IMG/VR virus record: IMGVR_UViG_3300000525_000068
Span: 1-20,074 of that record
Strand: one strand, 5' to 3'
Origin: a virus
DNA: 20,074 bases
Shown: in pieces, positions 1 to 16,980 of the stretch
Layout of the letters: the number at the start of each line of letters is the position of its first letter
How positions within the stretch are numbered: the first letter of the stretch is position 1
Translations under genes and position numbers: made by a program
The notes under the pieces: generated by a model
Told to the model about the DNA's origin: nothing
Databases searched by the model: none
What the model saw: the letters and a program-made list of their open reading frames with translations, nothing else

Positions 1-601
1 CAACCGAATTGTCATCGCTATCTACAATCAAAACATCCAAGTCATCCTCTGACTTCACGCCCCACGAATGACCTCCAACAGTTATCTCACTATCTGCGAT
101 TTTCCAATTTTCAACATCTCCACTTGGTACTTCGAATGTATGCAACAGAGTAGAATCTGATTGAAAAATATTAACTATTGCTGGGTTTGCTGGTCCGCTA
201 CATGGTAATGCTGGAATTTTCAAAACACCACTCTCAATGGTTAAATCCACCAAATCATCATTGTTGTCAACAATTTTCACATTGAAAACATCTGGTGCAA
301 ATAAATCGATATATGCTGATCCATTCACTGTAAGCTTTACCAATTTAGGATTAATAACAGGAACATACCCACCACTATCCAAAGCATCACCACTCGTTAC
401 AATTACATGCTTCAATCCTTCAAAATAATCAACTATCGCCTTATTGACAACATAAGGAATTTCTATGATCTCATCAATCAACAACACATCGTTCAACTTC
501 CCATTATGCAACAAAATATCCATAACGCTATCCACACTCCCATTATACTGGAGAGCAATATCAAAAATCGTTTGATTGTCCTGAACTTTAATCTTAGTCA
601 T
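1..601 (-). CDS. LysM-like baseplate/tail protein (C-terminally cut by window edge)
   Basis: The frame is open from an ATG at 601 to the window edge, giving 200 residues with no stop, so the C terminus is missing. The N terminus (MTKIKVQDNQTIFDIALQYN, then ILLHNGK and DEIIEIP at about 29-47) has the pattern of a short LysM-like fold: a first strand, a helix with I-x-Q-Y-x-G, and a closing I-x-IP strand. In contractile-tail clusters such domains sit in baseplate proteins. The remaining 150 residues are rich in beta-forming and acidic residues, match nothing I recognise, and could be a receptor- or baseplate-contact domain. The ATG lies inside the end of the upstream wedge gene (8-base overlap, ATGACTAA), so the two are probably translationally coupled. 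The phage-baseplate role is inferred mainly from position, just after the gp46-like gene. Confidence 0.6.
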   Translation of the reverse strand, partial: MTKIKVQDNQTIFDIALQYNGSVDSVMDILLHNGKLNDVLLIDEIIEIPYVVNKAIVDYFEGLKHVIVTSGDALDSGGYVPVINPKLVKLTVNGSAYIDLFAPDVFNVKIVDNNDDLVDLTIESGVLKIPALPCSGPANPAIVNIFQSDSTLLHTFEVPSGDVENWKIADSEITVGGHSWGVKSEDDLDVLIVDSDDNSV

Positions 602-893
602 AACTTGCTGTTATTTCAATGTCTTCAATGGTTTTAACGGCAACTTTCACCTTCTTTCCTCCATCAGCTTCAATTTGGAGTTTGATTTCTCTCTCCAACT
701 TCTCACGCACTCTGGAATCTATCGGAGCACGCAAATATGCAGAGATGCCAATCCCTAAAACAGGGTTTTGCGTATATTCTCCTTTATGAGCAATAAGCAA
801 ATCTTCGACATGTTGTTGGTCTGAATGGCCAACAACAAAATCTCCGTTTTCTATCTGCAGATCACCGTCTTTTAATATAAAGTCCTTAGCCAT
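594..893 (-). CDS. gp25/Mu gp46-like baseplate wedge protein
   Basis: This 99-residue protein matches the small gpW/gp25 (Mu gp46-like) baseplate family in size and layout. It has a short N-terminal strand region (DFILKDGDLQIENGDFVVG), then the family's usual helix after a Q/H-rich turn (SDQQHVEDLLIAHKGE), a conserved-looking P-x-LGIGI segment (about 44-51), and a C-terminal amphipathic helix followed by a beta strand. Members build the wedge that links the tail hub to the outer baseplate. It lies directly after the spike gene, overlapping it by 8 bases, as gp46 follows gp45 in Mu. Genome annotations sometimes mislabel such Bacteroidota proteins as oxidoreductases; nothing here supports an enzyme. 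Confidence 0.75.
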   Translation of the reverse strand: MAKDFILKDGDLQIENGDFVVGHSDQQHVEDLLIAHKGEYTQNPVLGIGISAYLRAPIDSRVREKLEREIKLQIEADGGKKVKVAVKTIEDIEITASYD

Positions 894-1410
894 GTTTAAT
901 ATTTTCGTTTTCTATTCCTGTTCCGTCTCCAAAATCTAATGACGCCAATGCTCCATTTAATGCAGTTTGAAACGCACTCGGTGCTCCATTGCCGGGTTCA
1001 GGAATTGGAGTTGATAAAACTGTTTTCAAGGCATCAATAAACGCCTTGTTCGTTGCCATGATTTGTTGAAGCTCTTCCGCTTTTACAATCGAATATGTAT
1101 CTCCATTAAACTCTATTTTATCGGCGTTTAATTGGTATTTAACTATCTCATCAAATTGCAATACAACCAACGCTTCTTTCTTATTCTCAATCTTGGCCAA
1201 CAACACTTGAGTTCCTATTTTAGGCTCAACGAGTATTCCTGTCACATTTGTATTGATCACAGATTTTACACGAATACCGTCCAATTCTAATCCATCAACT
1301 TTACATGTCAAAGTCCAGTCGTTTGCATCAAATGCAGTCACAACTCCTGTGAAGATTTCCGCTCCTAGAAAAGGCTGGATGATTCTTAAAACTGCGTCCT
1401 GTAAATTCAT
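886..1410 (-). CDS. Baseplate spike / assembly protein V-like (Mu gp45 position)
   Basis: A 174-residue protein with the layout of baseplate assembly protein V or spike proteins. Residues about 18-90 are strand-rich and look like an OB fold (FTGVVTAFDANDWTLTCKV, then IGTQVLLAKIENKKEALVVL). A short beta stretch with a repeated hydrophobic pattern follows (YQLNADKIEFNGDTYSIV), resembling the start of a spike stem. The last 60 residues hold a helix and a Gly/Pro-rich tail. The trimeric spike would sit at the tip of the tail tube and pierce the outer membrane. It sits between the hub and gp46-like genes, overlapping both by 4-8 bases. No clear metal-binding HxH tip motif is visible, so the piercing tip may be a separate small protein outside the window. 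Confidence 0.65.
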   Translation of the reverse strand: MNLQDAVLRIIQPFLGAEIFTGVVTAFDANDWTLTCKVDGLELDGIRVKSVINTNVTGILVEPKIGTQVLLAKIENKKEALVVLQFDEIVKYQLNADKIEFNGDTYSIVKAEELQQIMATNKAFIDALKTVLSTPIPEPGNGAPSAFQTALNGALASLDFGDGTGIENENIKHG

Positions 1411-2339
1411 GTTCTTGCTCCTAATTTAATTCCCTGTTGGTGTCCGTTAACTCCAACTGTATAATTAACTTCGTCTATCCAGTAGCTTCCAACTTTGTCA
1501 CTGTCTTCATTATCTTGGATAGTTAGAATGTCTCCTTGTTTTACGAATGGCTCACCAAATAGCGTTAAACCACCTCTCCAACCATCATAGATTAGTCTCT
1601 TCGCTTCCTCTTCTGTAAGTGCTTTTAATTGGCTTACTGGAATATTATAAAAATTCAAAGTATTTGAATCCCCGTCAGGGTCACCAATCTCAACTTCGTG
1701 CTTCTGGCCATCTGCCATGTTAGAAATTCCAATAACCTTAACTTTCACATCATCGGCAGATTTGTATTCTAAATCATCTTCCTTCACCGTTTCATTCAAA
1801 ACAACAAAGTGCTTCGTTGCGAATTCAGGATCATATTGCTTTCCGACTGTTACTTTTCCATCACGAATGAAAGACCTCAATCCAAAGTCTGATTTGATCT
1901 GATCTAACAGTTTAGCGGCGGAAATATTCGAAGCGATAAACCTTGGCAAATCAACCTCAAAAGAATCGATTTCGAAATCTGGAAGATTTCTCTGTAGGAA
2001 CGAAAGAATCGTTTCGTTTCTAGCAACGTCGTTTACTTGAATTTGCTTTAATTTCCACATCAAATCTTCACATTCAATCTCAATTGGAATAGTTGGTTTA
2101 ACTCCCGTTACAAATCCTGCGAATGCTAAATGCATGTTTGGTTCATATCCATAACTTATAGTTACAGCATCACCTTTCTTGATGAGATCCTTTAATTTGT
2201 TTTTGTCAAGCTTGAGATTAGCCGGTAATTTAATTACTGCAGTATCTGTCAAAGATTCCCAACCGCTTGTGATCTCAGCTTCGTGAACGTAGTCGAAATC
2301 GAAATTTCCAATGGTGATATGTGTCTGCGTTACCTTCAT
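1407..2339 (-). CDS. Tail hub protein (late control D / Mu gp44-like)
   Basis: A 310-residue protein of the size and layout expected for the gp27/gpD/Mu gp44 tail-hub family. An N-terminal beta domain (about 1-110) contains an ITSGWESLTDTAVIKLP strand pair and a GDAVTISYGYEP turn typical of the first hub barrel. A mixed middle domain includes the ISAAKLLDQIKSDFGLRSF helix (about 135-155). A C-terminal domain ends in GSYWIDEVNYTVGVNGHQQG, like the end of hub proteins where the receptor and order of strands repeat the first barrel. The trimeric hub joins the tail tube to the spike encoded next. The gene overlaps both neighbours by 4 bases (ATGA-type junctions). Assigned from fold pattern and synteny, not from one diagnostic motif. 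Confidence 0.7.
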   Translation of the reverse strand: MKVTQTHITIGNFDFDYVHEAEITSGWESLTDTAVIKLPANLKLDKNKLKDLIKKGDAVTISYGYEPNMHLAFAGFVTGVKPTIPIEIECEDLMWKLKQIQVNDVARNETILSFLQRNLPDFEIDSFEVDLPRFIASNISAAKLLDQIKSDFGLRSFIRDGKVTVGKQYDPEFATKHFVVLNETVKEDDLEYKSADDVKVKVIGISNMADGQKHEVEIGDPDGDSNTLNFYNIPVSQLKALTEEEAKRLIYDGWRGGLTLFGEPFVKQGDILTIQDNEDSDKVGSYWIDEVNYTVGVNGHQQGIKLGART

Positions 2340-2983
2340 TGCGTTAATGCTGATAATTCGTTAACATTTAATTCTAATGGAATATCACTTTTGGCAGTGA
2401 AAGAATATGCCTGGCAATTAATATATGGTGTTTTCGCCATCGTAGGTTGCATTATAACGATTTCGTAAACCCCAATTGCATTCAACACTTCGTGCGTAAC
2501 TCTCAATGTTGATTTCAATTTGAACATTGACCACAAATCAACGACCTGTTGAAGTGGATATCCATATTCGGAATTAACTAAAACACCATTGCAAGAGATT
2601 TCAACATCTCCGTTGTTGATGAATTCTTTCACAGAACTATCACGGCCATCAATGATAGTTTCAACAATATTTCTTGGCATTGTGAAATCAATCACGGCCG
2701 ATTCTAGCAAAATATCATCAACTCCATCAGCTGAAAGTGTCATTGGTTGAAAGAGGGGAGCACCTGCAAGATTGGAAGATTCGCCATAATCCTTTTTGTT
2801 AATTTCAGCAATTGAATCATAACCATTAACTATGTCCGTAACTTCTTTTAAAGCCGTATTATACTCAATTCGATTAGCAGCTTGCATCAATGCGCTTAAT
2901 GCATAAGCTGCTTCAGGTCGGTAATTCATTCCTCCACCGATCTTTGCAATTAACTCTGGTATGTTATAATTCTTAACTATCAT
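2336..2983 (-). CDS. Tail protein in the Mu gp43 position (DUF6046-like)
   Basis: A 215-residue protein lying between the tape measure and the hub, where Mu encodes gp43 (N). The N-terminal third is helical (AYALSALMQAANRIEYNTAL). The C-terminal two thirds are beta-rich and contain T-I-I-x-G-R-D-S-S-V-K-E-F-I-N-N-G-D at about 110-127. A 'G-T/S-V-K-E-x-I' segment of this kind followed by a YP loop (SEYGYPLQ) is what I remember of the Bacteroidota phage family DUF6046 and of related tube-to-hub adaptors. The likely role is to join the end of the tail tube to the hub. The start ATG overlaps the tape-measure stop by one base (TAATG). Family name is from memory and uncertain; the structural role is well supported by position. 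Confidence 0.55.
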   Translation of the reverse strand: MIVKNYNIPELIAKIGGGMNYRPEAAYALSALMQAANRIEYNTALKEVTDIVNGYDSIAEINKKDYGESSNLAGAPLFQPMTLSADGVDDILLESAVIDFTMPRNIVETIIDGRDSSVKEFINNGDVEISCNGVLVNSEYGYPLQQVVDLWSMFKLKSTLRVTHEVLNAIGVYEIVIMQPTMAKTPYINCQAYSFTAKSDIPLELNVNELSALTQ

Positions 2984-5112
2984 TACATTGCTACTTCAAA
3001 ATCACGTACAGCGGCAACCATTGCCTCTGTTACTTGTTGTTTAATTCTTCCTGTTCCTTCGCTTAAATTAGTTGTGCTTAAAGTTATATTCTTCACAAGA
3101 TTCTCAATTCGCACATTAATCGTTTTCATTTCACCTCCTGAACCTTGAATTACTTTGTCTCGGTTGGGAATTGATGCACCACCTCCCGTTACTGGATCAG
3201 TATTTACGCTATTGTTATCAGTAAAAGATTGTTTATTCTTAGAAGAAGAAACTAAACCAGCATCTTCATAAGCTTTATCGGCTTTCATACTTTCTTGAAG
3301 AGCCCTGTTAGACTCCTTAGCTGCTTCATTTACCTGAACATTTTTAACATCATCTGAAGAAATAACACCAAGTGAATTTAAAGAAATCAGCATTTCATAC
3401 CATCCTGGTGCTTTTTGCTCCGCTTGAACTTGCTCCTTCAACTTCTCCTTGTAAATCTCTGCAGCTACTTCTTTTCTCGCCCGAAGCATTGCATTGTCAG
3501 CAATCTTACCTTGAATTTCGTCAATCTTTTCGTTGGTTAACTGCTCCTCCGTGTACATCTTAAGCAAGTCAGGATATTCTTTTTTTAAGTCCTCAATTGC
3601 TTTCCTACGCTCATCAGTTCCCTCTTTAGCTGCTTTAATTCTATTGGTAAGAATAGTTGTTTCAGCAATTTCTTCAGAAGCTATATCAACAGCTCTTTCA
3701 TGAACTGCGTTTGCTGCTTTCTGTGCGTTTGTGCCACTGCTAACGTAATTAGATAGTGCATAAATACCTGCCCCCAACGCTACAACTCCTGCAATCAACA
3801 ACCCAATAGGATTAGCAGTCATTGCGGCATTCCATAACCACTGTGCTGCAGTAACTGCTTTTGTGGCAACTGATGCAATGATCTTTGATTTCCCTAAATA
3901 CTTCACTCCCGAAGCTGCGGCACTTGCAATTGGCACGAATGCAGACATCTGACGTGCAACATCTGATATTGGCTCTAAGTATGCAAACACTCCTCCTGTT
4001 GCTTGGAATACTGAAACTTTGAAATCATCAATGGAGGCCATCATGCGGGCTTGCTTTTCGGCTCCCGTGTCCATCATAACCTCCGCCTGCTCCATTGCTG
4101 TATTTGTACCAGTAATTGCAACAGTCATTTCTTCTTGCTGGTCAATTGACTGAATCAAAGATTGTGCGGCTCCTTGTGTTTCACGTCCGAATAACTTAGA
4201 CATTAATGCAGCATCTCCCGACACACTTTCCAAATTTCTTAATCTGTCCGTGAATGAAAGTGATTTATCTGAAAGTGCGTCAACATTTACTCCTGCAGCC
4301 GCTAATTCTTCCTGAACATCTTTTGGAAGGAAACGACCTTGGTTAAGTGTTGCAAGTACATTTCGCAAAGCAATACCACCTTCAGCACCTTTCTTTCCAG
4401 CTTTGTCAAGTAGTTGAATAGAAGACAACATTTCTTCAAATTTCACATTAGACCTCATTGCATCTCCACCGACATTCTTAACTGCAGCTTGCAAAACTGG
4501 CAACTCTGATGATCCTTCTTTGGCTGAGGCGGCCATTGAATTCATCATTTCCGTCATCACCTTATTTGCTCCTGCTGCATCCGTAAGGTCAACTTTATAT
4601 TGGTTCATTGCAGTTGTAAGAACATTCGTTGCTCCAACTACATCACCACCCATTGTCTTGGCTAACTTCTCAGAATTCTTAGCCATCAAATCAAGCGTCT
4701 CAGGATGATCTGCAAGTACAGGGCCTAATTGCGAAAGGATTAATTTGAAAGTATCAACAGATTTCGCTGCATCTCCTCCAAATATTTTCGCATTTGCTCG
4801 TGCTTTTTCTCCGAGTTCATCTAATTTATCGCCTGTTAATCCTGTAATAGCAGATAAATCCGCCATTGATGTTTCAAAATTTAGTCCTGGTCCTGCTATT
4901 TCTGAAAGTGCTCTTGTGGTGTTCTCTAAACCTTGCGTTATGCTTACAAATGAGATGTTCGCAATATGTTTTTGCATATTGGAAAACGAAGATTTTGAGG
5001 TCTTTTGAATCTCACTAACATCTCCCTTTAGCTTTCCTGTATCCTTGCGAATATCAGAGATTGCCTTGAAGATGTTACCTTCTACATCAATTGTAAATTT
5101 AGCATCGCTCAT
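2983..5112 (-). CDS. Tail tape measure protein (TP901 family)
   Basis: This 709-residue protein sets tail length and travels inside the tail tube. Residues about 70-350 carry the TP901-type core: an ETSMADLSAITGLTGDKL segment followed by helices with VVGATNVLTTAMNQY, AASAKEGSSELP and the GKKGAEGGIALRNVLATLNQ signature. Residues about 424-455 form one long hydrophobic stretch (NPIGLLIAGVVALGAGIYAL), a membrane-active segment common in tape measures. Residues 465-620 are charged helices, likely coiled coil. The last 80 residues are polar and end in a short helix. By the usual rule of about 1.5 angstroms per residue the tail would be near 100 nm. The ATG is 3 bases after the stop of the frameshifted chaperone, matching the lambda G/GT-H order. 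Confidence 0.93.
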   Translation of the reverse strand: MSDAKFTIDVEGNIFKAISDIRKDTGKLKGDVSEIQKTSKSSFSNMQKHIANISFVSITQGLENTTRALSEIAGPGLNFETSMADLSAITGLTGDKLDELGEKARANAKIFGGDAAKSVDTFKLILSQLGPVLADHPETLDLMAKNSEKLAKTMGGDVVGATNVLTTAMNQYKVDLTDAAGANKVMTEMMNSMAASAKEGSSELPVLQAAVKNVGGDAMRSNVKFEEMLSSIQLLDKAGKKGAEGGIALRNVLATLNQGRFLPKDVQEELAAAGVNVDALSDKSLSFTDRLRNLESVSGDAALMSKLFGRETQGAAQSLIQSIDQQEEMTVAITGTNTAMEQAEVMMDTGAEKQARMMASIDDFKVSVFQATGGVFAYLEPISDVARQMSAFVPIASAAASGVKYLGKSKIIASVATKAVTAAQWLWNAAMTANPIGLLIAGVVALGAGIYALSNYVSSGTNAQKAANAVHERAVDIASEEIAETTILTNRIKAAKEGTDERRKAIEDLKKEYPDLLKMYTEEQLTNEKIDEIQGKIADNAMLRARKEVAAEIYKEKLKEQVQAEQKAPGWYEMLISLNSLGVISSDDVKNVQVNEAAKESNRALQESMKADKAYEDAGLVSSSKNKQSFTDNNSVNTDPVTGGGASIPNRDKVIQGSGGEMKTINVRIENLVKNITLSTTNLSEGTGRIKQQVTEAMVAAVRDFEVAM

Positions 5113-5115
5113 TTC

Positions 5116-5355
5116 TTATTTTGCTCCTTTCGCTTTTAAAACTGTTGTGTATGCCTCCAATGCTCCATCTCGCACGGCGGCTTTTTGTTCTGAATAATTG
5201 TGATGGTTCAACCACAATGCATCAGCGGCTAAGATTGAAAACTCTTCCTCTGAGAGGGTTTTGGGGTCAATTTGAAAGTGTGACCGAATCAAGACGCCGA
5301 GCTTCCTGATATCTGCCTTACCCTCTTCATGGGGTATAGATGAAGAGTTTATCCG
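5116..5355 (-). CDS. Frameshifted C-terminal extension of the tail chaperone (gpGT-like)
   Basis: The -1 frame is open for 79 codons from CGG at 5355 to a TAA at 5118-5116, three bases before the tape-measure ATG. It fills the 237-base gap that otherwise looks non-coding. The frame holds no ATG at all, so it should be made only by slipping on A AAA AAC, giving a 195-residue fusion (116 residues of the short form plus 79). The peptide is ordinary and helical (for example TLSEEEFSILAADALWLNHH), with the acidic-to-basic profile of a folded domain. By analogy with lambda gpGT, this domain would contact the tape measure or recruit tube subunits. The homology itself is not provable by eye; the reading frame, stop position and signal are seen directly. 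Confidence 0.85.
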   Translation of the reverse strand, partial: RINSSSIPHEEGKADIRKLGVLIRSHFQIDPKTLSEEEFSILAADALWLNHHNYSEQKAAVRDGALEAYTTVLKAKGAK

Positions 5356-5361
5356 TTTTTT
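5323..5361 (-). promoter_or_regulatory. Programmed -1 frameshift signal in the tail chaperone gene
   Basis: On the minus strand the slippery heptamer A AAA AAC (5361-5355) is in the correct zero-frame register (TTA AAA AAC). A 7-base spacer (GGATAAA, containing the zero-frame stop) leads to a perfect 8-bp stem: CTCTTCAT (5347-5340) pairs with ATGAAGAG (5330-5323) around a 9-base loop. Heptamer, spacer of 5-9 bases and downstream hairpin are the three parts of a classic -1 signal. Frameshifting in this gene is conserved across many tailed phages. Confidence 0.88.
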
Positions 5362-5702
5362 AAGACACCAGTCAGAACTCTAAATGACTTAGCGATTCCT
5401 CTTGCCAATGCAAATTTGAATTCATCATCTTTGGTGAATACATCCGAACCACCTAAATGACAATTGTCGTAACAATATAGATTATTTGCGACTGCATCAT
5501 TCGGGTGCAATTGCTCAGCTGCTTGAACGATTTCTAAACTTGGCTTTTGAAAATAACCGATATGAACTTCCTCTCCATCAGGAACATCAAACCTCTTAAA
5601 TCTAGTTCCATGCTCTTTTCTCCATTTGTTTAGTTGAACCTCTGTCGCTTCTCCAATGAATACCAATTTCACTTCTTTCTTCTTTACTAATTCTTTTGCC
5701 AT
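5349..5702 (-). CDS. Tail assembly chaperone, short form (lambda gpG-like)
   Basis: A 117-residue protein directly upstream of the tape measure and downstream of the tail tube, the conserved place for tail assembly chaperones that coat the tape measure before tube growth. The sequence (for example VKLVFIGEATEVQLNKWRKE, then EEVHIGYFQKP) gives no motif that names a family, so the call rests on position, size, and the frameshift signal at its 3' end. The last codons are TTA AAA AAC GGA TAA: the zero-frame stop comes two codons after a canonical A AAA AAC slippery heptamer. Most ribosomes should stop here to give the short form; a fraction should shift into the downstream frame. The start ATG-GCA-AAA has an A-rich leader and no Shine-Dalgarno sequence. 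Confidence 0.8.
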   Translation of the reverse strand: MAKELVKKKEVKLVFIGEATEVQLNKWRKEHGTRFKRFDVPDGEEVHIGYFQKPSLEIVQAAEQLHPNDAVANNLYCYDNCHLGGSDVFTKDDEFKFALARGIAKSFRVLTGVLKNG

Positions 5703-5721
5703 AGTTGCATTTATTGAATCA

Positions 5722-5746
5722 AAGCACCCCGTTGATAGGGATGCTT
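5722..5746 (-). terminator. Stem-loop between tail tube and chaperone genes (possible partial terminator)
   Basis: In the 64-base gap the minus strand reads AAGCATCCC, a 7-base loop, then GGGGTGCTT: nine pairs with one G-U. It is followed by TTGATTCAAT, a weak T-rich tract. It lies just after the two most abundant tail proteins (sheath, tube) and before low-copy assembly proteins, so it may lower transcription into the chaperone and tape measure or protect the upstream message. An RNA-stability role is equally possible. Confidence 0.45.
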
Positions 5747-5766
5747 CTAGTTTATTTTAATTTTGA

Positions 5767-6198
5767 TTATATTACGTTGTAATCAATGTGAGACGTGATT
5801 AACTCGTGTGAATGCATCATCTCTGTATCTCCTTGAGAAACATCAATCCCGTTGCTTTTGAATTGACAGTTACGAATAATGTCTGTTCTTAAAAGCTGTT
5901 GATTCTTTGGTTGAAAAGTTACCACAATATCAAAAGGTGGAATGTCCTGAAGATTTTGACCTGGTGCTAAAGAATTCATAATTGCTCTTGTTTCAAATTC
6001 AAGAAGATCAATTGATGCCGTAGGATCAACATTCCCATCACCTCTTGCAATTGGATGATTTCCTGCACCTCGAATGTGCTCTTTTGCCTGAGCGTCTGCA
6101 TAAGTGATCTTTTTTATTCCAGATACAGTTCTCGATAAAAGATTTACTTTGATCGATCCCCAGCTTGGCTGTACGCCGTTAATAAATGGTTGTGCCAT
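5767..6198 (-). CDS. Tail tube protein (Mu gpM position)
   Basis: A 143-residue protein immediately after the sheath gene, the standard place and size (about 115-170 residues) for a myovirus tail tube subunit. It begins with FINGVQPSWGSIKVNLLSRT, where a short strand leads to a basic loop and then KKITYADAQAKEHIRGAG, as in XkdM-like tubes that open with a 'what it is built on' strand and an acidic/basic loop. The C terminus is beta-rich with NCQFKSNGIDVSQGDTEMM, resembling the last tube strands that face the lumen. Stacked hexamers would form the rigid inner tube through which DNA passes. The gap from the sheath stop is 10 bases, so both should be translated at high level from one message. 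Confidence 0.75.
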   Translation of the reverse strand: MAQPFINGVQPSWGSIKVNLLSRTVSGIKKITYADAQAKEHIRGAGNHPIARGDGNVDPTASIDLLEFETRAIMNSLAPGQNLQDIPPFDIVVTFQPKNQQLLRTDIIRNCQFKSNGIDVSQGDTEMMHSHELITSHIDYNVI

Positions 6199-6208
6199 TG
6201 TGAATGTT

Positions 6209-7381
6209 TTAATTTGGGTTAATAAATCCGATGTTAGCCACTATTTCTCTCGCTTTACCGAAAGGAACTAATGACAACTGGGTGTCGATGATTGATGTTG
6301 CAAGAACATCTTGAGCAGGATCAATGTAGAATTTGAAACCTGACAATTCGCCTGGCATCTGTTCAGTAATTGCTTTGTCCACTTTCGCTTTCATTGCCAT
6401 TACGAAAGTTGCATCCAATTCTCCACTCGTTGGATCAACTGCAACTGGCCCACCAAGATCAGGTAGCAATGTTGCTCTTACGATTCTAGTCGCTTTGTTA
6501 ATAGTACGTACACTTTCTATGTATGCAAAGTCATCTGTTGCCGCTGTACATGTATGCGTGTCGTTGAAGTAAACTCCTGCGATTCCTACATGCTTTCTAA
6601 AGAATATTGCACCTCCAGTATTCGCTGCTTCCAATTTTGAATTGGTAATTGCGGACATTTTCTGATTGCTTATTGAACCAATGCTCAATGTTCCTCCTTG
6701 CATGTTAAAGTCTTGCACATAGTCAATTCCTACATGAACTTGCGCTTTTGAAATTGCTCCTAAAGCTGTTCCAATTGCTGCGTATGTTTCAAAGGCAGTG
6801 TCTTGACTTGCAACTGCGAAATCTTGACCAACCATCACTGCAACATTCTCAGCGTTTAAATCTCTGAAATCATCTGGAGTGTCGATATCATATCCTTTTC
6901 CTTCCAATACAATTAACACAGGCTTGTGACCAATGTACAACGCTGCTGCTTGTATTTGTGCCTCTGCAACTGCCGCCAATAGATCAGTTGTATCTGTAAC
7001 CGCAACCGTTGGGTTGTAGGTAACTGCAATTTGGTTCAGCTTTCCATCTGCTCCATCTTGAAGCGTTGGTGCTTTCTTCACACAATCAACATAAGTAGTT
7101 GCTTGTGCTACCAATAGAATATGAAGCTCACCGTTTGGATTAACACGGAAGAATTCTTTGATGTGCTCGTACACCAAAACAGTATTGGTTGTGTCGTAAG
7201 CTGCATCAAGTTTCAAAACTTCCGCTTCTTTTACACTTGTTAACATATACACAATGTCTAATTGTGCACCGCCAACAACAGTAACTCCATTAGCGATTAA
7301 ACCGCTAATCATGTCCGTAGATGGTTCTCGTCTTCCAAGACCTCCACGGACTTTAATGATTTTTACATCGTTCAATGACAT
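6209..7381 (-). CDS. Contractile tail sheath protein (DUF2586-like)
   Basis: A 390-residue protein resembling the DUF2586 tail sheath family found in Mu-like and Bacteroidota phages. The N terminus (VKIIKVRGGLGRREPSTDMISGLIANG) matches the family's opening, with a Gly-rich turn after a short strand. The middle has a Rossmann-like alternation: NGELHILLVAQATTY, KPVLIVLEGKGYD, then ENVAVMVGQDFAVA. The C-terminal part (about 290-390) includes TINKATRIVRATLLPDLGGPV and a final FYIDPAQDVLATS segment, corresponding to the conserved sheath core that packs on the tube and carries the linker arms. Its presence shows the phage is a myovirus. It lies 4 bases after the upstream gene and is followed by the tube, as in Mu (L then M). 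Confidence 0.88.
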   Translation of the reverse strand: MSLNDVKIIKVRGGLGRREPSTDMISGLIANGVTVVGGAQLDIVYMLTSVKEAEVLKLDAAYDTTNTVLVYEHIKEFFRVNPNGELHILLVAQATTYVDCVKKAPTLQDGADGKLNQIAVTYNPTVAVTDTTDLLAAVAEAQIQAAALYIGHKPVLIVLEGKGYDIDTPDDFRDLNAENVAVMVGQDFAVASQDTAFETYAAIGTALGAISKAQVHVGIDYVQDFNMQGGTLSIGSISNQKMSAITNSKLEAANTGGAIFFRKHVGIAGVYFNDTHTCTAATDDFAYIESVRTINKATRIVRATLLPDLGGPVAVDPTSGELDATFVMAMKAKVDKAITEQMPGELSGFKFYIDPAQDVLATSIIDTQLSLVPFGKAREIVANIGFINPN

Positions 7382-7384
7382 AAC

Positions 7385-7879
7385 TTATGAATTTGTTGGT
7401 TTATGCTCATCTGAATCGTCAGCGTCTGCATCTTCTGAATCTTCCTCACCTTCCTCTCCAGCGTTTAAATTGTCAGGATTAAAAGGAGTGTCTAGGAACG
7501 TTTGAATTGTCTCAGCAATTACTGGATTTGTTGCCTCTTCATCAATTGTGATTTCATTCTCTTTTGCGAATTCAATCAATTGAGATTTGTTCATTCTCTT
7601 GAGATTCGGAGCTTCAATCTCTGAAACATCAGAAGTTTCTTTTGAAGCTTCAGTTGCTGAAGCTTTAGGATCTTCTTTTGAAGGATCAACCTTTTTCTTT
7701 TCAGATAAATCAGAATTCTGAATGGTTTCTAATTTCAAGCCGTTGTCATCTGCATGGCGTTTCGCCCAAATCTCTGCTTTCTTTTCGAAAATCTGACCAT
7801 CTGACGTGATCACACACTCCTCTGATTCTTTATAATTTTTGAAAAAATCTTCTAACTCTTTTTTATACTTCGTTACCAT
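7385..7879 (-). CDS. FluMu-type acidic protein with a HeH/LEM-like helix pair
   Basis: I place the start at ATG 7879 (MVTKYKKELEDFF), giving 164 residues. A longer in-frame reading to 7951 would run 79 bases back into the spanin-like gene, whereas this ATG overlaps that gene by 7 bases (TTATGGTAA). The N terminus holds ECVITSDGQIFEKKAEIWAK, a pattern I remember from small Bacteroidota phage proteins that end before the tail genes. A polar linker is followed by NKSQLIEFAKENEITIDEEA at about 111-130, which resembles a HeH/LEM-like extension helix pair as in Mu gp35-type (FluMu) proteins. The tail is strongly acidic (EEGEEDSEDADADDSDE). Probable role: a minor structural or DNA-contacting accessory protein of the head-tail region. 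Function not proven. Confidence 0.6.
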   Translation of the reverse strand: MVTKYKKELEDFFKNYKESEECVITSDGQIFEKKAEIWAKRHADDNGLKLETIQNSDLSEKKKVDPSKEDPKASATEASKETSDVSEIEAPNLKRMNKSQLIEFAKENEITIDEEATNPVIAETIQTFLDTPFNPDNLNAGEEGEEDSEDADADDSDEHKPTNS

Positions 7880-8352
7880 AATTTTGATTTTAGAATAATA
7901 AATACTATGATGAAAATCAGCAGACCAGATAAGATTAGAATAGCTGTCCAATTTTGTTTGATTACCACCTCCTTGATGGCTTCCTGCTGAATTACTTCTT
8001 TATTTGTTTTTTGATTTTGATACCATTTCTCCATTGAACTTATGACAAGCTTCTCAACTCGTTCACAAATACACTCTGCCGTAATAGTACTATCTCGATA
8101 CTTAATGATAGTTTTAACACCATTTGAAGAATTGGATATTTCGCCTTTTTCGATGAGTTCTTGAAGCATTGCTTCAAGCTTGTTGTTGCGCTCTTCAAAT
8201 ACAGCTGTATCAAGTTTTACAACTTTCGTGTATGAAATTGAATCCCGATGATCAAGCGTTGTCTCCTTCGTCTTCTCAATGCTTTTTGAAAGCTTGCAAG
8301 AGGAAATTGACAACGCCGCAATCATGGCAACTATGAACATTAAATATCTCAT
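7873..8352 (-). CDS. Probable unimolecular spanin (lipoprotein with C-terminal membrane anchor)
   Basis: A 159-residue protein with both ends anchored. The N terminus is a lipoprotein signal (MRYLMFIVAMIAALSISSC, lipobox ISS-C19). The C terminus is a 20-residue membrane helix at about 135-155 (ILILSGLLIFIIVFIILKSK). Between them lies a polar region with coiled-coil spacing (ERNNKLEAMLQELIEKGE). An outer-membrane lipid anchor plus inner-membrane C-terminal helix is the topology of u-spanins such as phage T1 gp11, which join the two membranes at the end of lysis. It is the last gene of the lysis cassette, overlapping the small membrane protein by 4 bases. A two-piece Rz/Rz1 pair is not seen elsewhere in the window. 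Sequence homology to known spanins cannot be judged by eye. Confidence 0.7.
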   Translation of the reverse strand: MRYLMFIVAMIAALSISSCKLSKSIEKTKETTLDHRDSISYTKVVKLDTAVFEERNNKLEAMLQELIEKGEISNSSNGVKTIIKYRDSTITAECICERVEKLVISSMEKWYQNQKTNKEVIQQEAIKEVVIKQNWTAILILSGLLIFIIVFIILKSKLW

Positions 8353-8657
8353 CCTATTTTTTTACTTAATTTCTCAAGCTGTCTTGAGAGTTGTTTGATT
8401 TTGAACTCCTGCTTATCCTGAACATGATACATTTCTCGCAATTTCACACGACAATCAGATTCTTTTTTGTCAGAGCTTTCACGCTCTTTGGTCAGGTAAT
8501 CCAATAGACCTTGCGAACTTGCAAGAAGCTTCTCAGCTCCTTCAGCGAGTACTTGCGTGTCTCCACGTTTCGACTTCTGTTTCCCGCCAAGCATCCATCC
8601 TGCAGCTGTTGTTACAGCACCAATGACTCCCACGATTATTTCGTTCTCGTAATTCAT
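8349..8657 (-). CDS. Small membrane protein of the lysis cassette (holin candidate)
   Basis: This 102-residue protein has one membrane helix near the N terminus (IIVGVIGAVTTAAGWMLGG, about 7-25). A basic stretch (KQKSKRG) follows, then a long charged helix with coiled-coil spacing to the end (LTKERESSDKKESDCRVKL, then QLSRQLEKLSKK). The acidic N terminus and basic flank after the helix predict N-out, C-in, leaving the coiled coil in the cytoplasm. That argues against an inner-membrane spanin and fits a class III-like holin or another membrane regulator of lysis. It lies between the amidase and the spanin-like gene with 4-base overlaps on both sides, so it belongs to the lysis unit. The amidase lacks a signal peptide and would need such a partner. 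Confidence 0.55.
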   Translation of the reverse strand: MNYENEIIVGVIGAVTTAAGWMLGGKQKSKRGDTQVLAEGAEKLLASSQGLLDYLTKERESSDKKESDCRVKLREMYHVQDKQEFKIKQLSRQLEKLSKKIG

Positions 8658-9277
8658 CTCATCTCTAAGTATTGATTGAGAGTTTCAGCGAGCAACACTC
8701 CAGTTTGACATTGAAAATCTGAATTTCTCAAAGTGCGTACACCTTCATCGTTGGTGTGAAATTCTAATTCAATAAGAATAGCAGGGCACACTGTATCTCG
8801 CACAACTGCGAAGTTGGCTTCCTTCCCAAGGTATCCATCGCTCAAATCTGTGCGTAATGGAATTTTTGGAAAATTATTTTTGAAACCTTTCAACCACAGA
8901 TCGGCAATTATGTCCGCTTCTGTATTTCCGTAGAAAGTAAATGCTTCATGACCTCTCGCACTGGAAGATTTAGCACCATTAGAATGTATAGAGAATAGAA
9001 TTGCATCCCTATTTCGAGAAAGCTCGTTTGCTCTCTTCACACGATCATTGAGCGAGATGTCTTTCCATTCTGATGGGCACACAGTAAACTCAACTTCATA
9101 ACCGTAAATTCTGAGAGTTTCAGCCCATTCACGAGCGAAAACTCTATTCCCAACTCCTTCGTAATAAAACGAGCCATCTACCTCTATGCGAGAAGCGTTG
9201 CTTGGATTAATAGCTCTACCAGTTGAAGGATCAAACGTCCCGTGTCCTGCGTCTATTATAATCAATGGCTTTTTCAT
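8654..9277 (-). CDS. N-acetylmuramoyl-L-alanine amidase endolysin (Amidase_3)
   Basis: A 207-residue zinc amidase that cuts the bond between N-acetylmuramic acid and the stem peptide. Zinc ligands are visible as H12 in IIIDAGHG, E40 in YYEGVGN and H98 in ILFSIHSNG. The catalytic glutamate is E170 in AILIELEFHTN, where the usual E-x-G-F reads E-L-E-F. The protein is a single catalytic domain with no cell-wall-binding module and no signal peptide, so export to the periplasm probably depends on the membrane protein encoded next. It ends in ATGA overlapping that gene. Its place between the capsid gene and the tail genes, instead of ahead of the head genes as in Mu, is a notable difference in layout. 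Family assignment is firm. Confidence 0.93.
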   Translation of the reverse strand: MKKPLIIIDAGHGTFDPSTGRAINPSNASRIEVDGSFYYEGVGNRVFAREWAETLRIYGYEVEFTVCPSEWKDISLNDRVKRANELSRNRDAILFSIHSNGAKSSSARGHEAFTFYGNTEADIIADLWLKGFKNNFPKIPLRTDLSDGYLGKEANFAVVRDTVCPAILIELEFHTNDEGVRTLRNSDFQCQTGVLLAETLNQYLEMR

Positions 9278-9312
9278 GGCTCGTTCTTCTCTCTCTGGGT
9301 TGGGTTATAATA

Positions 9313-10323
9313 CTATACTGCTGGCGAATAGATCGCTGCAATTCCTTTCCCTCTGATAGGCTTAGATAAACCTCTCATTTGGAATCCGACTTTATCACCA
9401 CGTACATCTACATCTCGTAGGTTTGCAAATAAATCCAGAGTTCCTTGCGCTCGCATCACTTCATTCTTATGGAATGCGAAAGAAGCTCTCACATCAGTTG
9501 AAGCTGCAGCAGCTGCTTGCCAAGCAACCTTAGCGTCAGTAGTCTTATTATATCTCGGAAGTCTTTTGTCTGCTAAGAAGTATAACTTGAATCCTAACAA
9601 CATGCGCTTATCAAGTACTTTGTTAAATCTGTCTACATCTTCATTTTCCAAATCTTCTTGATGCTGGCTTGAAAGAATCAATATTCTACCCTCTTCAGGA
9701 ATCTCTGAATTATTGAATGCAGTTCTCAATTTTACGATGTCAGCATACAACAGTCGTTTATTTCCATTTCCGTTATTTCCACCAGTAGTTTTGATTATTG
9801 GCGTGTTTGCCGTATTTGTAGCAGGCACTAAATTAAACGCTGCACGTTCCATGAAGAACATTCTTAAGGAATTCTTATGGCCATCTGCAATAGATTTCAT
9901 TTTATCATAAGCTAATTCTGCTTTTTCCATTGCTGTCAATAAAGTTGTCTCCGTGTCATAGGTCTCTAAAGCCAAAGCAATAGCTGTATCAGTTCTTTCA
10001 GCTACAGCAATGGGATAACTTGTGTTATTAAGCAATACTGCAGGGTCATCTCCCGCCTCTGCGAGGTTAATTGTGTTATTGTCCACAAATGGCGACATAT
10101 CACGCATTTCACTCAAGAACATGTCATCAGCATAGAAATCTTCAATGATTTCATCTAACCAAACTTCCTTATTCAATCCTGCATAAGCAGCACCTTTAAT
10201 TGTTGGGGTAAGAGCCGATAAGGCTATTAGTCCAGCACCTGCTGCTAGAACTGGGAGACCTGTTAATAAGGTCACTGTGAACGCCATTAAGGCGATCGGA
10301 ATAAATCCAAATATCTTTTTCAT
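9313..10323 (-). CDS. Major capsid protein (HK97-fold type) with hydrophobic N terminus
   Basis: A 336-residue protein directly after the protease/scaffold gene, as expected for the major capsid protein. I place the start at ATG 10323, since the codon before it (10326) is GTG. From about residue 45 (AYAGLNKEVWLDEIIEDFYAD) the sequence follows Bacteroidota phage capsid proteins: an N-arm, a long helix with ETTLLTAMEKAELAYDKM, a loop region, and a P-domain-like segment RILILSSQHQEDLENEDV. The C-terminal part (ASFAFHKNEVMRAQGTLDLF) resembles the final capsid strands. Residues 4-41 are almost wholly hydrophobic (IPIALMAFTVTLLTGLPVLA), like a signal peptide or two membrane helices, which is unusual for a shell protein. 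It may be removed by the prohead protease or used at the inner membrane. Confidence 0.8.
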   Translation of the reverse strand: MKKIFGFIPIALMAFTVTLLTGLPVLAAGAGLIALSALTPTIKGAAYAGLNKEVWLDEIIEDFYADDMFLSEMRDMSPFVDNNTINLAEAGDDPAVLLNNTSYPIAVAERTDTAIALALETYDTETTLLTAMEKAELAYDKMKSIADGHKNSLRMFFMERAAFNLVPATNTANTPIIKTTGGNNGNGNKRLLYADIVKLRTAFNNSEIPEEGRILILSSQHQEDLENEDVDRFNKVLDKRMLLGFKLYFLADKRLPRYNKTTDAKVAWQAAAAASTDVRASFAFHKNEVMRAQGTLDLFANLRDVDVRGDKVGFQMRGLSKPIRGKGIAAIYSPAV

Positions 10324-10329
10324 CACTTA

Positions 10330-10788
10330 TTAATTTGAGTTTTTAACAACTTGAGCGTAACGGTCAGGATCATTGTCCTTCATCGCTAACAGCCCTGAAT
10401 AATCTTTCTTTTTCCAATCACGGAATGACCATGCGTCACGGCCATCAGCGTTTGGTATTGTTGGCTTTCCACCTCCTGCAATTGCAGTTAGGTTTTCTTT
10501 GCCTGGCATACCATCAATTGTCTCAGTAGCCAATTGAATGTCATACTCAGCCAACTTTGTGATGCGCTCTTCATTCTTAGCGGTCACTTTGCCTGATTTC
10601 TTTCCTGATGCAATTAAATCTGTAACTGCTTTCTGTTGCGCATCTTTCTGCGCTTTCTCCATGCTTGTGACCTTCGCCTCTAACACTTCGTTTCTAGCAA
10701 TAACAATTTCAACGGCAGCAGTAATTTGATCGTCTTTTGCCTCGGATTCTAATCCAAGAGCGACAATCGTCTTTGCGTTTAACTTCAT
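10330..10788 (-). CDS. Nested scaffold protein from an internal start in the protease gene
   Basis: M219 of the protease frame begins a 152-residue protein (MKLNAKTIVALGLESEAKDD). It follows a polar, Pro/Asn-rich linker (EEKPQNSNTPKTNNM), as expected at a domain border. The bases ahead of the ATG are AT-rich and unstructured (CCCCCAAAACAAATAAC), the usual form of a Bacteroidota start. Lambda Nu3 is made in the same way from within the C protease gene. The separate product would supply scaffold in excess of protease. It is inferred; no direct evidence of initiation exists. Confidence 0.5.
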   Translation of the reverse strand: MKLNAKTIVALGLESEAKDDQITAAVEIVIARNEVLEAKVTSMEKAQKDAQQKAVTDLIASGKKSGKVTAKNEERITKLAEYDIQLATETIDGMPGKENLTAIAGGGKPTIPNADGRDAWSFRDWKKKDYSGLLAMKDNDPDRYAQVVKNSN

Positions 10789-11442
10789 GTTATTTGTTTT
10801 GGGGGTATTACTATTTTGGGGCTTCTCCTCTGCTTGGAAGAAACGTGATTTTAGGTCTTCGTCTGATGCGAAGTTTTCCATACATGCGGCAATATTTGCC
10901 ATGTCATGGTAGGCGTTGATATCTTCATCAGAAAGTGTAGGATCAACAACTTCATCAACGATGTTGTCCGTTAACGCCATATCTGAAGAAAACCAATTAT
11001 CTCCTTCTAACCATGCTTTCAAATCTTCCTCTGTCTTGGACGTTCGTTTCATATAGTATGCTGTGAATTGAGATTCTAAAATTCTGAGCACCTTTGCGTA
11101 CTTCTCCATTTCAATGGCTGTACCTTCAACTGATCCAGATGGTGCGTGAATCATGATCCAACCATTATCTGCAATCTTGATTTTGTTAGCGGCCAACATT
11201 ATAATAGTCGCCATACTTGCAGCAATGCCATCTATCACAATTGTTAAGTCACCTTTAAATGCTCTTAAAGTGTTATAGATTAGATTTCCATCGAACACTG
11301 AGCCTCCTGGTGAATGCATGTGAATAGTTGCGGATTTCCTGCCTTTCAAAAAAGCAGAAAGTTGACTAGTGATGTACTGGCCATCTCCACCCCATATTCT
11401 TCCATATAATTTTGCGGTGTCTCCGCTTGAATTGAATATCAT
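10330..11442 (-). CDS. ClpP-like prohead protease fused to a scaffold domain
   Basis: A 370-residue protein. Residues 1-170 form a ClpP/SppA-like protease: the oxyanion loop HSPGGSVFDG at 43-52, the nucleophile S76 in IDGIAASMATII, and the base H99 in GWIMIHAPSG. The third residue is probably an aspartate in the NWFSSDMALTDNIVDEV segment near 150-165. Residues about 219-370 are helical and charged (KVTSMEKAQKDAQQKAVTDL), as expected of a scaffold that is digested during head maturation. It ends six bases before the capsid ATG. It is the first gene of the minus-strand late operon and faces the divergent control region. An in-frame ATG at 10788 can produce the scaffold alone. Confidence 0.88.
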   Translation of the reverse strand: MIFNSSGDTAKLYGRIWGGDGQYITSQLSAFLKGRKSATIHMHSPGGSVFDGNLIYNTLRAFKGDLTIVIDGIAASMATIIMLAANKIKIADNGWIMIHAPSGSVEGTAIEMEKYAKVLRILESQFTAYYMKRTSKTEEDLKAWLEGDNWFSSDMALTDNIVDEVVDPTLSDEDINAYHDMANIAACMENFASDEDLKSRFFQAEEKPQNSNTPKTNNMKLNAKTIVALGLESEAKDDQITAAVEIVIARNEVLEAKVTSMEKAQKDAQQKAVTDLIASGKKSGKVTAKNEERITKLAEYDIQLATETIDGMPGKENLTAIAGGGKPTIPNADGRDAWSFRDWKKKDYSGLLAMKDNDPDRYAQVVKNSN

Positions 11443-11599: not shown

Positions 11600-12034
11600 A
11601 TGAAGATGGCTGAAAAGAAACAACTCGCACAGAGTTTATATGTGAAATCGGATTTTACACGAAAGCAAATTGCAGAGCAGGTTGGGGTTACGGAGAAAAC
11701 CTTGAGGGGTTGGATAACTGATGGAGAGTGGGATACAATGAAGGATGCGCTTCAAGTAACTCGTCCGCAATTATTGATTGAAGCTTATTCTCAATTAAAA
11801 GCCGTTAACACAAAGATTCGTGATGATTTTGGAAACGTGCCTAACAAAGAATTGAGCGATGCTAAAGGTGTATTGCGTAAGGAAATAGAGATTCTATCTA
11901 ACCAACCAATTCACAAATACATTGAAGTATTTGAAGACTTTATTCAATTCTTATCTAAGAACGATCCAAAGGAGCTTTCAAAATGGGCATCCTTGTCTCA
12001 GCTGTTTATTAACGAAATTGTAAAAGAGCGATAA
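11600..12034 (+). CDS. Terminase small subunit-like HTH protein
   Basis: A 144-residue protein placed just before the large terminase. Residues about 20-44 (TRKQIAEQVGVTEKTLRGWI) form a helix-turn-helix with the spacing of Mu-type small terminases and transposase-like DNA-binding domains. The remaining residues are helical and charged (for example LSDAKGVLRKEIEIL), suggesting the oligomer-forming part. Small subunits bind the phage pac region and load DNA into the motor. An ATG at 11606 is an alternative start, shortening the protein by two residues. The stop codon directly abuts the large-subunit ATG (TAAATG), so the two are coupled. Confidence 0.78.
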   Translation: MKMAEKKQLAQSLYVKSDFTRKQIAEQVGVTEKTLRGWITDGEWDTMKDALQVTRPQLLIEAYSQLKAVNTKIRDDFGNVPNKELSDAKGVLRKEIEILSNQPIHKYIEVFEDFIQFLSKNDPKELSKWASLSQLFINEIVKER

Positions 12035-13558
12035 ATGGCAGGACCACACATACAGAAAGACAAGCAAGCTCAGAAAAGATACGAAGAACTTTGTAGAAGG
12101 ATTTCTGAAAGTACAGGGTTTGATCACTTTGAAAGCATTCAGAATAAAGCGGAGAGAATCAAAGGATTTAAGGGTGATTTTAAGCGATTTGTTGAATATT
12201 ACTTTCCACACTATGGCGATTCTGAAACCCCTGAATTTCACGTGCGCATTGCTAGACGAGTAAAAAGGTCTAAGACTTACAAAGCTTGGTTGAAGTGGGC
12301 ACGTGGACATGCGAAATCTGTAGTGGCTACTGTACTACTGCCATTATGGTTGTGGATTAATGATGACATTAAATTCTTAGTTGTAATTGGACAAAACGAA
12401 GACAAGGCAAAGATACTCCTTGGAGATTTACAAGCTGAATTTGAGAACAATCAAAGGATAATTAATGACTTTGGAAAACAACAACAACTCGGAAGTTGGG
12501 AAGATGGATTTTTCACAACTAAATCAGGATTCAAAGCCAAAGCACTTGGAATGGGTCAAGAACCTCGTGGATTACGTGTTGGTGCTGATAGGCCTGATAT
12601 GATTGTTGCAGATGATTGGGAAACCAAAGACACCGCTAAGAATGCAGCGAGACAGAAAGAGTATGCTGAATGGTTCTTGCGTTCTGTTATTCCTACAATG
12701 GATGATAAGAATAGACGTGTGTTGATTGCTCAAAACAAGTTTCATCCTCAAATGATATTTGACCTTGTTGTTGATGGCAACGATGAATGGAAAGAAGACA
12801 GAGTTGATGCTTATGATGCTGTAACCTACGAACCAATTTGGAAAGATAAGTATGATCCTGAATTCTTCAAACTGCAGGAGAAAACAATGGGAACTATTCG
12901 AGCGTTGGCAGAATACAACAACACACCGCACATTGAAGGTACAATGTTTAAGGACGAATATATTCAATTTGCGAAGATTCCACGCATAGATCACTTTGAT
13001 GCTATTTTAGGCACTTGGGATGTTGCTTATGGCGGAACGAAAACAAGTGATTTCAATGCCATCCGTATTTGGGGCTTGAAAGACAATGTGAAGTACCTGA
13101 TTGATTGCTATGTGAAGCAATCTGTAGTTCGTGAAGCTGTGCAATGGATTAAGGATTTCCAGTCGAGACTTCCACGAGGTGTGAAAGTTCAAGTTGGGTT
13201 TGAAGCACAATTTTGGAACGAGGCAATATTTGACGCCATTCAAGAAGTTGAAAAGGAGGCAGGTTTCCGTTTGAATCTAATTAAAATGGAGCGCAGACGA
13301 GGCAATAAGTATGATGCTATGTGTGAGATGCTTCCCGATTATCAAAACGGAAGAGTATTCTACAACCGACAATTGAAAGGGCACAACGACACGCAGACAG
13401 GAATTGCACAATTGAAAGGAATTGAGCCGGGTTACAAATCAAAAGACGATGCTCCAGATGCAGACAAATATGCTTTCGATGAATTGGACAGATACAAAGG
13501 ATCTTCTTTTCATTCGGGTGGAAGATTAGGAGGATCACGTACATCACGTAAATACTAA
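12035..13558 (+). CDS. terL: Terminase large subunit (packaging ATPase/nuclease)
   Basis: A 507-residue protein that powers DNA entry into the prohead and cuts it at each headful. The N-terminal ATPase has a Walker A-like loop WARGHAKS at about 88-95 and a Walker B with catalytic acidic pair MIVADDWE at about 189-196. The C-terminal nuclease of RNase H fold shows acidic residues in the expected order: D328 (GTWDVAYGG), E389 (VGFEAQFW) and an aspartate in DAPDADKYAFDEL near 471-483. The segment between them is of normal length, and no domain is missing. The C terminus is Gly/Ser/Arg-rich (GGRLGGSRTSRKY), probably a portal-contact tail. It is followed within five bases by the gp36-like gene, in the usual Mu-like order. 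Confidence is high. Confidence 0.95.
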   Translation: MAGPHIQKDKQAQKRYEELCRRISESTGFDHFESIQNKAERIKGFKGDFKRFVEYYFPHYGDSETPEFHVRIARRVKRSKTYKAWLKWARGHAKSVVATVLLPLWLWINDDIKFLVVIGQNEDKAKILLGDLQAEFENNQRIINDFGKQQQLGSWEDGFFTTKSGFKAKALGMGQEPRGLRVGADRPDMIVADDWETKDTAKNAARQKEYAEWFLRSVIPTMDDKNRRVLIAQNKFHPQMIFDLVVDGNDEWKEDRVDAYDAVTYEPIWKDKYDPEFFKLQEKTMGTIRALAEYNNTPHIEGTMFKDEYIQFAKIPRIDHFDAILGTWDVAYGGTKTSDFNAIRIWGLKDNVKYLIDCYVKQSVVREAVQWIKDFQSRLPRGVKVQVGFEAQFWNEAIFDAIQEVEKEAGFRLNLIKMERRRGNKYDAMCEMLPDYQNGRVFYNRQLKGHNDTQTGIAQLKGIEPGYKSKDDAPDADKYAFDELDRYKGSSFHSGGRLGGSRTSRKY

Positions 13559-13563
13559 ATATT

Positions 13564-13986
13564 ATGATATTAACATTAGGAGATTACTCCAAAATCATTG
13601 ACAGCGAAGAGTTGGAAGATGTTGTTGGTGATTTAAGTATGGCAGGTTGGGAATTGCTTCAAGATTTGGAAGGTGATGCAATTGACGAAATGAAAGGTTA
13701 CTTGGCGGTCCGTTACGATGCAGAGAAGTCTCTTGACGACGCAGAGAATGCTAGTATCGGAGTTCTTAAGAGAAAGCTTGTCGATATGATTCTCTATGAT
13801 GCATTTGCGCTTATTGTTCCAAATAACATTCCTGAGCTTCGCACAACTCGTAGAGACAATGCAATTGAATATCTTGAGAAGATTGCAGACGGTTTTATTA
13901 ATCCAGCATTTCCAATACTAGAAGATGAAGCAACAACGCCTTTGCGCTTTGGTTCTGAACTTCCTAAATCTGATAATTACTTTTAA
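13564..13986 (+). CDS. Mu gp36-like head-tail connector protein (DUF1320-like)
   Basis: A 140-residue, mainly helical protein with the size and gene place of the Mu gp36/DUF1320 family, which acts at the head-tail connector. Its middle holds DAIDEMKGYLAVRYDAEKSL and KRKLVDMILYDAFALIVP, and its end has RRDNAIEYLEKIADGFINP. The YL-x-x-RYDA element and the R-R-D-N-A-x-x-Y-L-E helix are typical of this family. In Mu gp36 lies with the tail genes; here it lies between terminase and portal, as in several Bacteroidota prophages. The start ATG-ATA is preceded by TAAATATT with no Shine-Dalgarno site. The portal ATG follows the stop by 2 bases. Confidence 0.8.
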   Translation: MILTLGDYSKIIDSEELEDVVGDLSMAGWELLQDLEGDAIDEMKGYLAVRYDAEKSLDDAENASIGVLKRKLVDMILYDAFALIVPNNIPELRTTRRDNAIEYLEKIADGFINPAFPILEDEATTPLRFGSELPKSDNYF

Positions 13987-13988
13987 TA

Positions 13989-15188: not shown

Positions 15189-15210
15189 GCCCCGAAGCTG
15201 CGTTCGGGGC
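15176..15210 (+). promoter_or_regulatory. Candidate programmed -1 frameshift signal at the portal-MuF junction
   Basis: The portal frame reads TCT TTT TTC GAC TAA. This places the heptamer T TTT TTC (15176-15182) in the register needed for simultaneous -1 slippage. A 6-base spacer (GACTAA, holding the portal stop) leads to a perfect 8-bp stem GCCCCGAA/TTCGGGGC (15189-15196 with 15203-15210) around a 6-base loop. The -1 frame is open from 15158 through the whole MuF gene. No T-tract follows the hairpin on either strand, so it is not a normal terminator. All parts are seen directly; frameshifting itself is inferred. Confidence 0.75.
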
Positions 15211-15241
15211 ATCGTTGAGAGAGGTATATGATCATGCGGTG

Positions 15242-16453: not shown

Positions 16454-16980
16454 TGGCTGATTTCAAGAAATGGGATGAGAAAATAAGGAAACTGGAGGAA
16501 TACATGCGTAATGATATTCAGACAAGAATTGGAGTTGAATCTGTGAACCATTTTAAAGAGAGCTTCGAGAATCAAGGATTTACGGACAGTTCTTTAGAAA
16601 AGTGGGATGAAGTAGAAAGACGAAAGCCTGAAAGTCCTTGGTATGGATTTAAATACAAAGGAACCGCTAAGAATCCAAGAAAAAAGCAAAGGAAGAGTGG
16701 ATTATATACGAACTACTCTCCAGCTGCAACTTCTCGACAGATTTTAAGCGGAGAAACGGATAACTTGATGAATGGCATTCGGTGGACAAAGCGAGGAAGG
16801 AATGTTTACGTCACAGCCAACACAAAATATGCGCAACTGATTAATGAAGGAGGAGCGATGAGAGTATTTGGCAAGCACTCTGCAACGATGCCAAAACGGC
16901 AATTCATGGGAAGATCAAAAGTATTGAATAAGAAGATTGAGGTAAAGATAATGAAGGATTTAAAAAGGATAATGAGATGA
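16453..16980 (+). CDS. Tail completion / virion morphogenesis protein (Mu gpG-like)
   Basis: A 175-residue protein of the Mu gpG/phage_tail_S family (virion morphogenesis), which helps finish the tail or join it to the head. The N terminus is a charged helix with RNDIQTRIGVESVNHFKESF, matching the family's opening helix. A region of strong positive charge follows (AKNPRKKQRKSG), and near the end the characteristic TKYAQLINEGG, then MPKRQFMGRS appears at about 134-164, followed by a closing helix. It begins at TAATG, overlapping the MuF stop by one base, and its own stop overlaps the next ATG (ATGA). It lies in the plus-strand head operon, away from the rest of the tail genes. Confidence 0.85.
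   Translation: MADFKKWDEKIRKLEEYMRNDIQTRIGVESVNHFKESFENQGFTDSSLEKWDEVERRKPESPWYGFKYKGTAKNPRKKQRKSGLYTNYSPAATSRQILSGETDNLMNGIRWTKRGRNVYVTANTKYAQLINEGGAMRVFGKHSATMPKRQFMGRSKVLNKKIEVKIMKDLKRIMR

Follow-up and report, generated by a model that had tools for sequence, protein, structure and literature searches.

A putative programmed -1 frameshift in the tail assembly chaperone gene of a group of Mu-like contractile phages of Bacteroidota

Programmed -1 frameshifts of tail chaperone genes are known from many tailed phages, according to the statements for which PMC5009743 and PMC3711429 cite Xu, Hendrix and Duda (2004), and the -1 frameshift of lambda gpG/gpGT (Levin 1993; Xu, Hendrix and Duda 2004) is the case summarised in PMC5009743. 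For the tail chaperone of phage Mu, a shift of -2 is reported (PMC5009743), and a g-t frameshift at A_AAA_AAC has been described in the haloarchaeal virus HCTV-2 (PMC5009743). In E. coli, A_AAA_AAC is a weak site, much less shift-prone than A_AAA_AAG (PMC5009743), and bacterial slip sites are reported to favour an all-purine ZZN (PMC4066793, PMC5009743). In this study, we followed up an original prediction of such a tail chaperone frameshift in a virus sequence, which had presented it as expected biology shared with lambda-like and many other phages. The window, i.e. the whole stretch of 20,074 nucleotides that was analysed (IMG/VR record IMGVR_UViG_3300000525_000068), belongs to a Mu-like contractile phage with portal (PF06074), head protein F (PF04233) and sheath (DUF2586) genes. 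The conserved frame, extension protein and slip site and a matching fold support the frameshift interpretation, and we put at about 95% the probability that the gene yields two proteins through a G/GT-type programmed -1 frameshift. The features concerned are as follows.

6209..7381 (-), tail sheath protein; phrog_907 tail sheath, DUF2586 PF10758
5767..6198 (-), tail tube protein; phrog_4579 tail protein (E 4e-10) and gene order, 3' of the sheath gene
5349..5702 (-), putative tail assembly chaperone, short form, 117 aa, gpG-like; phrog_19076, model fold and gene order
5355..5361 (-), slippery heptamer A_AAA_AAC, in register with the short form; sequence and family statistics
5349..5351 (-), 0-frame TAA stop, between heptamer and stem; sequence
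5323..5347 (-), putative stimulatory hairpin; sequence, fold and shuffle test
5116..5355 (-), -1 frame extension, 79 codons and TAA, gpT-like; translation and homologues in relatives
2983..5112 (-), tape measure protein; phrog_28 tail length tape measure (E 6e-31), PhageMin_Tail PF10145

The order of genes on the minus strand of the window is sheath, tube, 117-aa ORF and tape measure, and the placement of the 117-aa ORF between the tube and tape measure genes is shared with annotated relatives. The locus resembles lambda gpG/gpGT in its position before the tape measure gene, in a -1 shift at an in-frame heptamer close to where the chaperone ends, and in an extension ending near the tape-measure start. 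While the lambda heptamer is G_GGA_AAG, that of the window is A_AAA_AAC, and the window differs further in its downstream hairpin and in belonging to a contractile Mu-like phage of Bacteroidota; a sequence similarity of the window system to lambda gpG/gpGT was not detected. Phage Mu shares with the window the Mu-like head module and a frameshift-extended chaperone before the tape measure, but its shift is -2 whereas that of the window and of all relatives is -1, and a chaperone of the Mu type, whose -2 shift equals the +1 frame, was ruled out by the -1 frame of the extension in all of them. The heptamer of the window also occurs in a gene of g-t type in HCTV-2; the host of that virus is archaeal, so the ribosome concerned is not a bacterial one. 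As for the tube protein (5767-6198, minus strand), its best PHROG match is phrog_9206, labelled major head protein, which is likely a mislabel given the location after the sheath, and this protein is the likely partner of the chaperone extension.

The 0-frame of the chaperone ends in GTC TTA AAA AAC GGA TAA, in which A_AAA_AAC (5361-5355, minus strand) stands in register; the next 6 nt, one sense codon and the TAA stop (5351-5349), complete the ORF. A spacer of 7 nt, GGATAAA, leads to a perfect 8-bp stem, CTCTTCAT (5347-5340) paired with ATGAAGAG (5330-5323), which encloses a loop of 9 nt. The -1 frame runs through 79 sense codons (5355-5119) to a TAA at 5118-5116, contains no ATG, and leaves 3 nt before the tape-measure ATG (5112), so that slippage would give a product of 116 + 79 = 195 aa. 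The original prediction had thus described the heptamer, the 7-base spacer, the 8-bp stem, the ATG-less frame stopping three bases before the tape measure and the 195-residue long form exactly as direct reading and translation give them. Its gap of 237 bases needs correction: the chaperone and tape-measure ORFs are separated by 236 nt (5113-5348), and the figure of 237 nt corresponds to the 79 extension codons.

Relatives were gathered through the sheath protein and a subsequent sheath alignment from IMG/VR, GTDB genomes and annotated phage records, the scan yielding 80 loci from viral contigs and 3 from genome contigs. These three genome loci lie in MAGs of Flavobacteriia, Flavobacteriales and Bacteroidales, and the annotated relatives infect Flavobacterium and Winogradskyella, so the hosts of the phage group are most likely Bacteroidota. 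The sheath of the window is 28-34% identical to those of Winoviridae members, whose gene order is similar; in the sheath tree Winoviridae members stand in several places, with the window in a neighbouring clade. A profile search for the extension, counted as an ORF separate from that of the chaperone, recovered it in 68 loci of distinct sequence, all from Mu-like contractile phages, and its frame was -1 relative to the chaperone in 68/68 (67 called by script, and L070, with A_AAA_AAC, by inspection). A search for the 79-residue peptide among GT-type extensions of Bacteroidota phages had been suggested, and relatives without an open -1 frame had been named as evidence against the idea; homologues exist and the frame is open in every one of these loci. 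Among relatives the extension reaches 52-83 codons past the stop and carries a common pattern, RK..ALIR..F.IDP..L.DEE. In comparisons among the window, L004 and L006, the latter two being the loci closest to it, dN in the extension is 0.17-0.33 and dS is saturated or above 2.7, whereas the alternative frames of the same region contain stops and give no such dN/dS pattern. The extension is thus conserved as protein, both parts are under purifying selection, and the two-frame arrangement and its conservation are apparent in the sequences themselves.

These data also bear on the possibility that a gene was broken or wrongly assembled, a thought that the mere sight of two abutting frames invites. 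The same -1 arrangement recurs in all 68 distinct loci even though their sequences are distant, both parts are under purifying selection, and a second contig is identical to the window at 11168/11170 bases; the relatives refute a broken gene or assembly error, and we give it practically no weight. Variants of the chaperone ORF were seen at some loci. The ORF of L011 (6645-7307) has 220 aa, as though the chaperone domain had been duplicated in tandem; although only a degenerate slip site (GTT GTA AAG CTA TAA) is present there, the -1 extension is still conserved. The chaperone ORFs of L015, L017 and L104, from Flavobacterium-type phages, have about 175-183 aa in place of the usual 110 or so, owing to an extra segment.

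It could be proposed that the extension is a separate small protein, made by internal initiation or by re-initiation at a non-ATG codon after the chaperone stop. TTG and GTG codons are present in the frame of the window, and 24/67 relatives have an in-frame ATG before the core motif. On the other hand, 29/67 relatives have neither ATG, GTG nor TTG before that motif, which argues against internal initiation, and the window itself has no ATG; moreover, a separate protein would leave unexplained both the conserved in-register heptamer beside the stop and the constant -1 overlap. We consider this origin of the extension very improbable.

Frameshifting, by contrast, would account for the heptamer, whose placement is far beyond chance: an in-register A_AAA_AAN lying 3 or 6 nt from the end of the stop codon was found in 50/67 chaperone genes and, at the same placement, in only 2/569 control ORFs of those loci (Fisher p 6e-57). 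Among 50 nonredundant sites the last codon is AAG in 22, AAC in 15, AAA in 5 and AAT in 1, the remaining sites being T_TTT_TTG, A_AAT_TTT and the lambda-type G_GGA_AAG. In one clade the slip site lies 24-27 nt upstream of the stop, at A_AAT_TTT or T_TTT_TTG. This clade comprises L073, L077, L078, L094, L067, L062 and L069, and a hairpin follows the site in most of them. A few loci (L011, L019, L022, L043 and L051) keep the extension and have only degenerate slip sites, which counts against the frameshift reading.

The run of A residues raises the alternative that RNA polymerase slips and that the long form is translated from transcripts that have gained or lost A residues. Runs of 8-9 A in some relatives, e.g. 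L012 and L065, would suit such an origin, but the run of the window has just 6, and non-homopolymer sites occur elsewhere in the family (G_GGA_AAG in L018; A_AAT_TTT in L014, L062 and L069); the short run and these sites disfavour slippage during transcription. The strict register and the hairpin at ribosomal spacing likewise indicate the ribosome, and to polymerase slippage we attach only a very small likelihood.

A_AAA_AAC is less expected from the reported preferences of bacterial sites, and it nonetheless makes up about a third of the nonredundant sites. At least 7 changes between AAC and AAG are needed on the sheath tree, and where the last site codon encodes Asn it is AAC in 15/16, against a background of 60% AAC in those loci (p 0.0015), a bias compatible with selection for the slip codon itself, as opposed to the residue it encodes. 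The repeated AAC/AAG changes and the preference for AAC over AAT bear on the idea that Bacteroidota host ribosomes slip efficiently on A_AAA_AAC, the site that is weak in E. coli; we regard this idea as rather unlikely. If true, the rules of A-site slippage would differ between bacterial phyla, and these phages would switch freely between AAC and AAG. SD-like tetramers lie 5-18 nt upstream of the heptamer in 18/50 cases, compared with 16% at control positions of the same genes, an excess that may be only a coding effect of conserved Gly and Glu codons; the window has none at this distance.

The predicted hairpin was judged by a fixed, position-specific test, in which a contiguous stem beginning 4-9 nt past the heptamer was scored against dinucleotide shuffles, because the free energy of the larger 86-nt segment of the window is not unusual (z = -0.44). 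At this spacing the stem of the window has a p of about 0.005, and it is notable by its position, not by overall stability. Stems above 95% of shuffles were found at 18/50 nonredundant sites (combined p 2.7e-14), and the mean stem score was 14.5 at the heptamer spacing versus 10.5 at other offsets of the same region. The longest examples are those of L010 (14 bp) and L033 (13 bp), and L004 retains an 8-bp stem through a shifted pairing register. Since the stem was not significant in this test at 32/50 nonredundant sites, the hairpin is common in the family, not universal.

With regard to the proteins themselves, the 117-aa ORF matches phrog_19076 (E 3.6e-8). The AlphaFold model of the short form (pLDDT 93) has as its best solved matches 3fgx (Z 8.8), the HK97 chaperone 2ob9 (Z 5.9) and YqbN 3klu (Z 5.5), followed by entries of Z 3.0 or less, and a sequence profile search likewise ranks 3fgx first (E 0.0022). 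3fgx and YqbN (3klu) are XkdN-type chaperones of PBSX-like elements. While the fold is shared with these three structures, identity to them is 5-11% and no Pfam family is shared at threshold; a Pfam search with 52 chaperones gave scattered single matches and no common family at threshold. A Z of 5-6 taken singly would be weak, and it is because three structural entries agree, together with the gene order and the frameshift, that the model supports the short form as a tail assembly chaperone, the identity originally predicted for it. The extension is modelled as two helices, the second long (pLDDT 93). Compared with solved structures it gave no convincing match, the best (Z 4.5) being to a lone long helix, and no family was found for it in Pfam or PHROGs, with a single member matching phrog_34965 at E 0.008. 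Its second-ranked viral match, weak at E 0.12, is a separately called 42-aa ORF of Flavobacterium phage lotta8-1.

Putting these parts together, we propose that most ribosomes would terminate at the TAA and release the 117-aa chaperone, and that the hairpin would pause a minority of them, allowing the tRNAs on AAA and AAC to slip one base back on A_AAA_AAC. Slippage, presumably at a modest rate and with stimulation by the hairpin, would be followed by translation of 79 more codons in the -1 frame, giving the 195-aa form, whose C-terminal domain is helical. Should the binding partners and the action of both forms on tape measure and tube be those of lambda gpG/gpGT, the tape measure protein might be covered by short copies in large number and a few long ones, and tail-tube subunits might be recruited by the extension.

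The records of four annotated relatives, pippi8-1, Peternella_1, FPSV-S1 and fF4, annotate the frameshift in no case: in Peternella_1 and FPSV-S1 no gene is called where the extension lies, and in pippi8-1 and fF4 part of it appears as a small ORF of its own. That automated annotation would miss the extension, as had been anticipated, is true of all four. No account of such a frameshift in Winoviridae or in the phage group as a whole was found in the open-access literature, and tblastn with the distant L054 chaperone as query retrieved no annotated phage. Taken as a whole, the sequence comparison gives good support to the view that a known tail-building device is probably used throughout this group of Mu-like Bacteroidota phages. 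For the whole group of contractile Mu-like phages of Bacteroidota this gives a rule tested on the relatives: the frame left open ahead of the tape measure gene encodes the chaperone's second half, to which a -1 shift leads. The rule corrects how Winoviridae and their relatives are annotated, and phrog_19076, listed without function, gains a likely role as tail assembly chaperone. The family also offers a natural panel (AAC, AAG, AAA, A_AAT_TTT and G_GGA_AAG, with hairpins) on which slippage rules from E. coli could be tested in Bacteroidota. A minor observation concerns the layout of the window, in which the terminase, portal and early head genes (11600-17453, plus strand) and the genes for capsid and tail (2-11442, minus strand) are arranged divergently; the terminase of Peternella_1 and of fF4 also lies on the strand opposite to capsid and tail.
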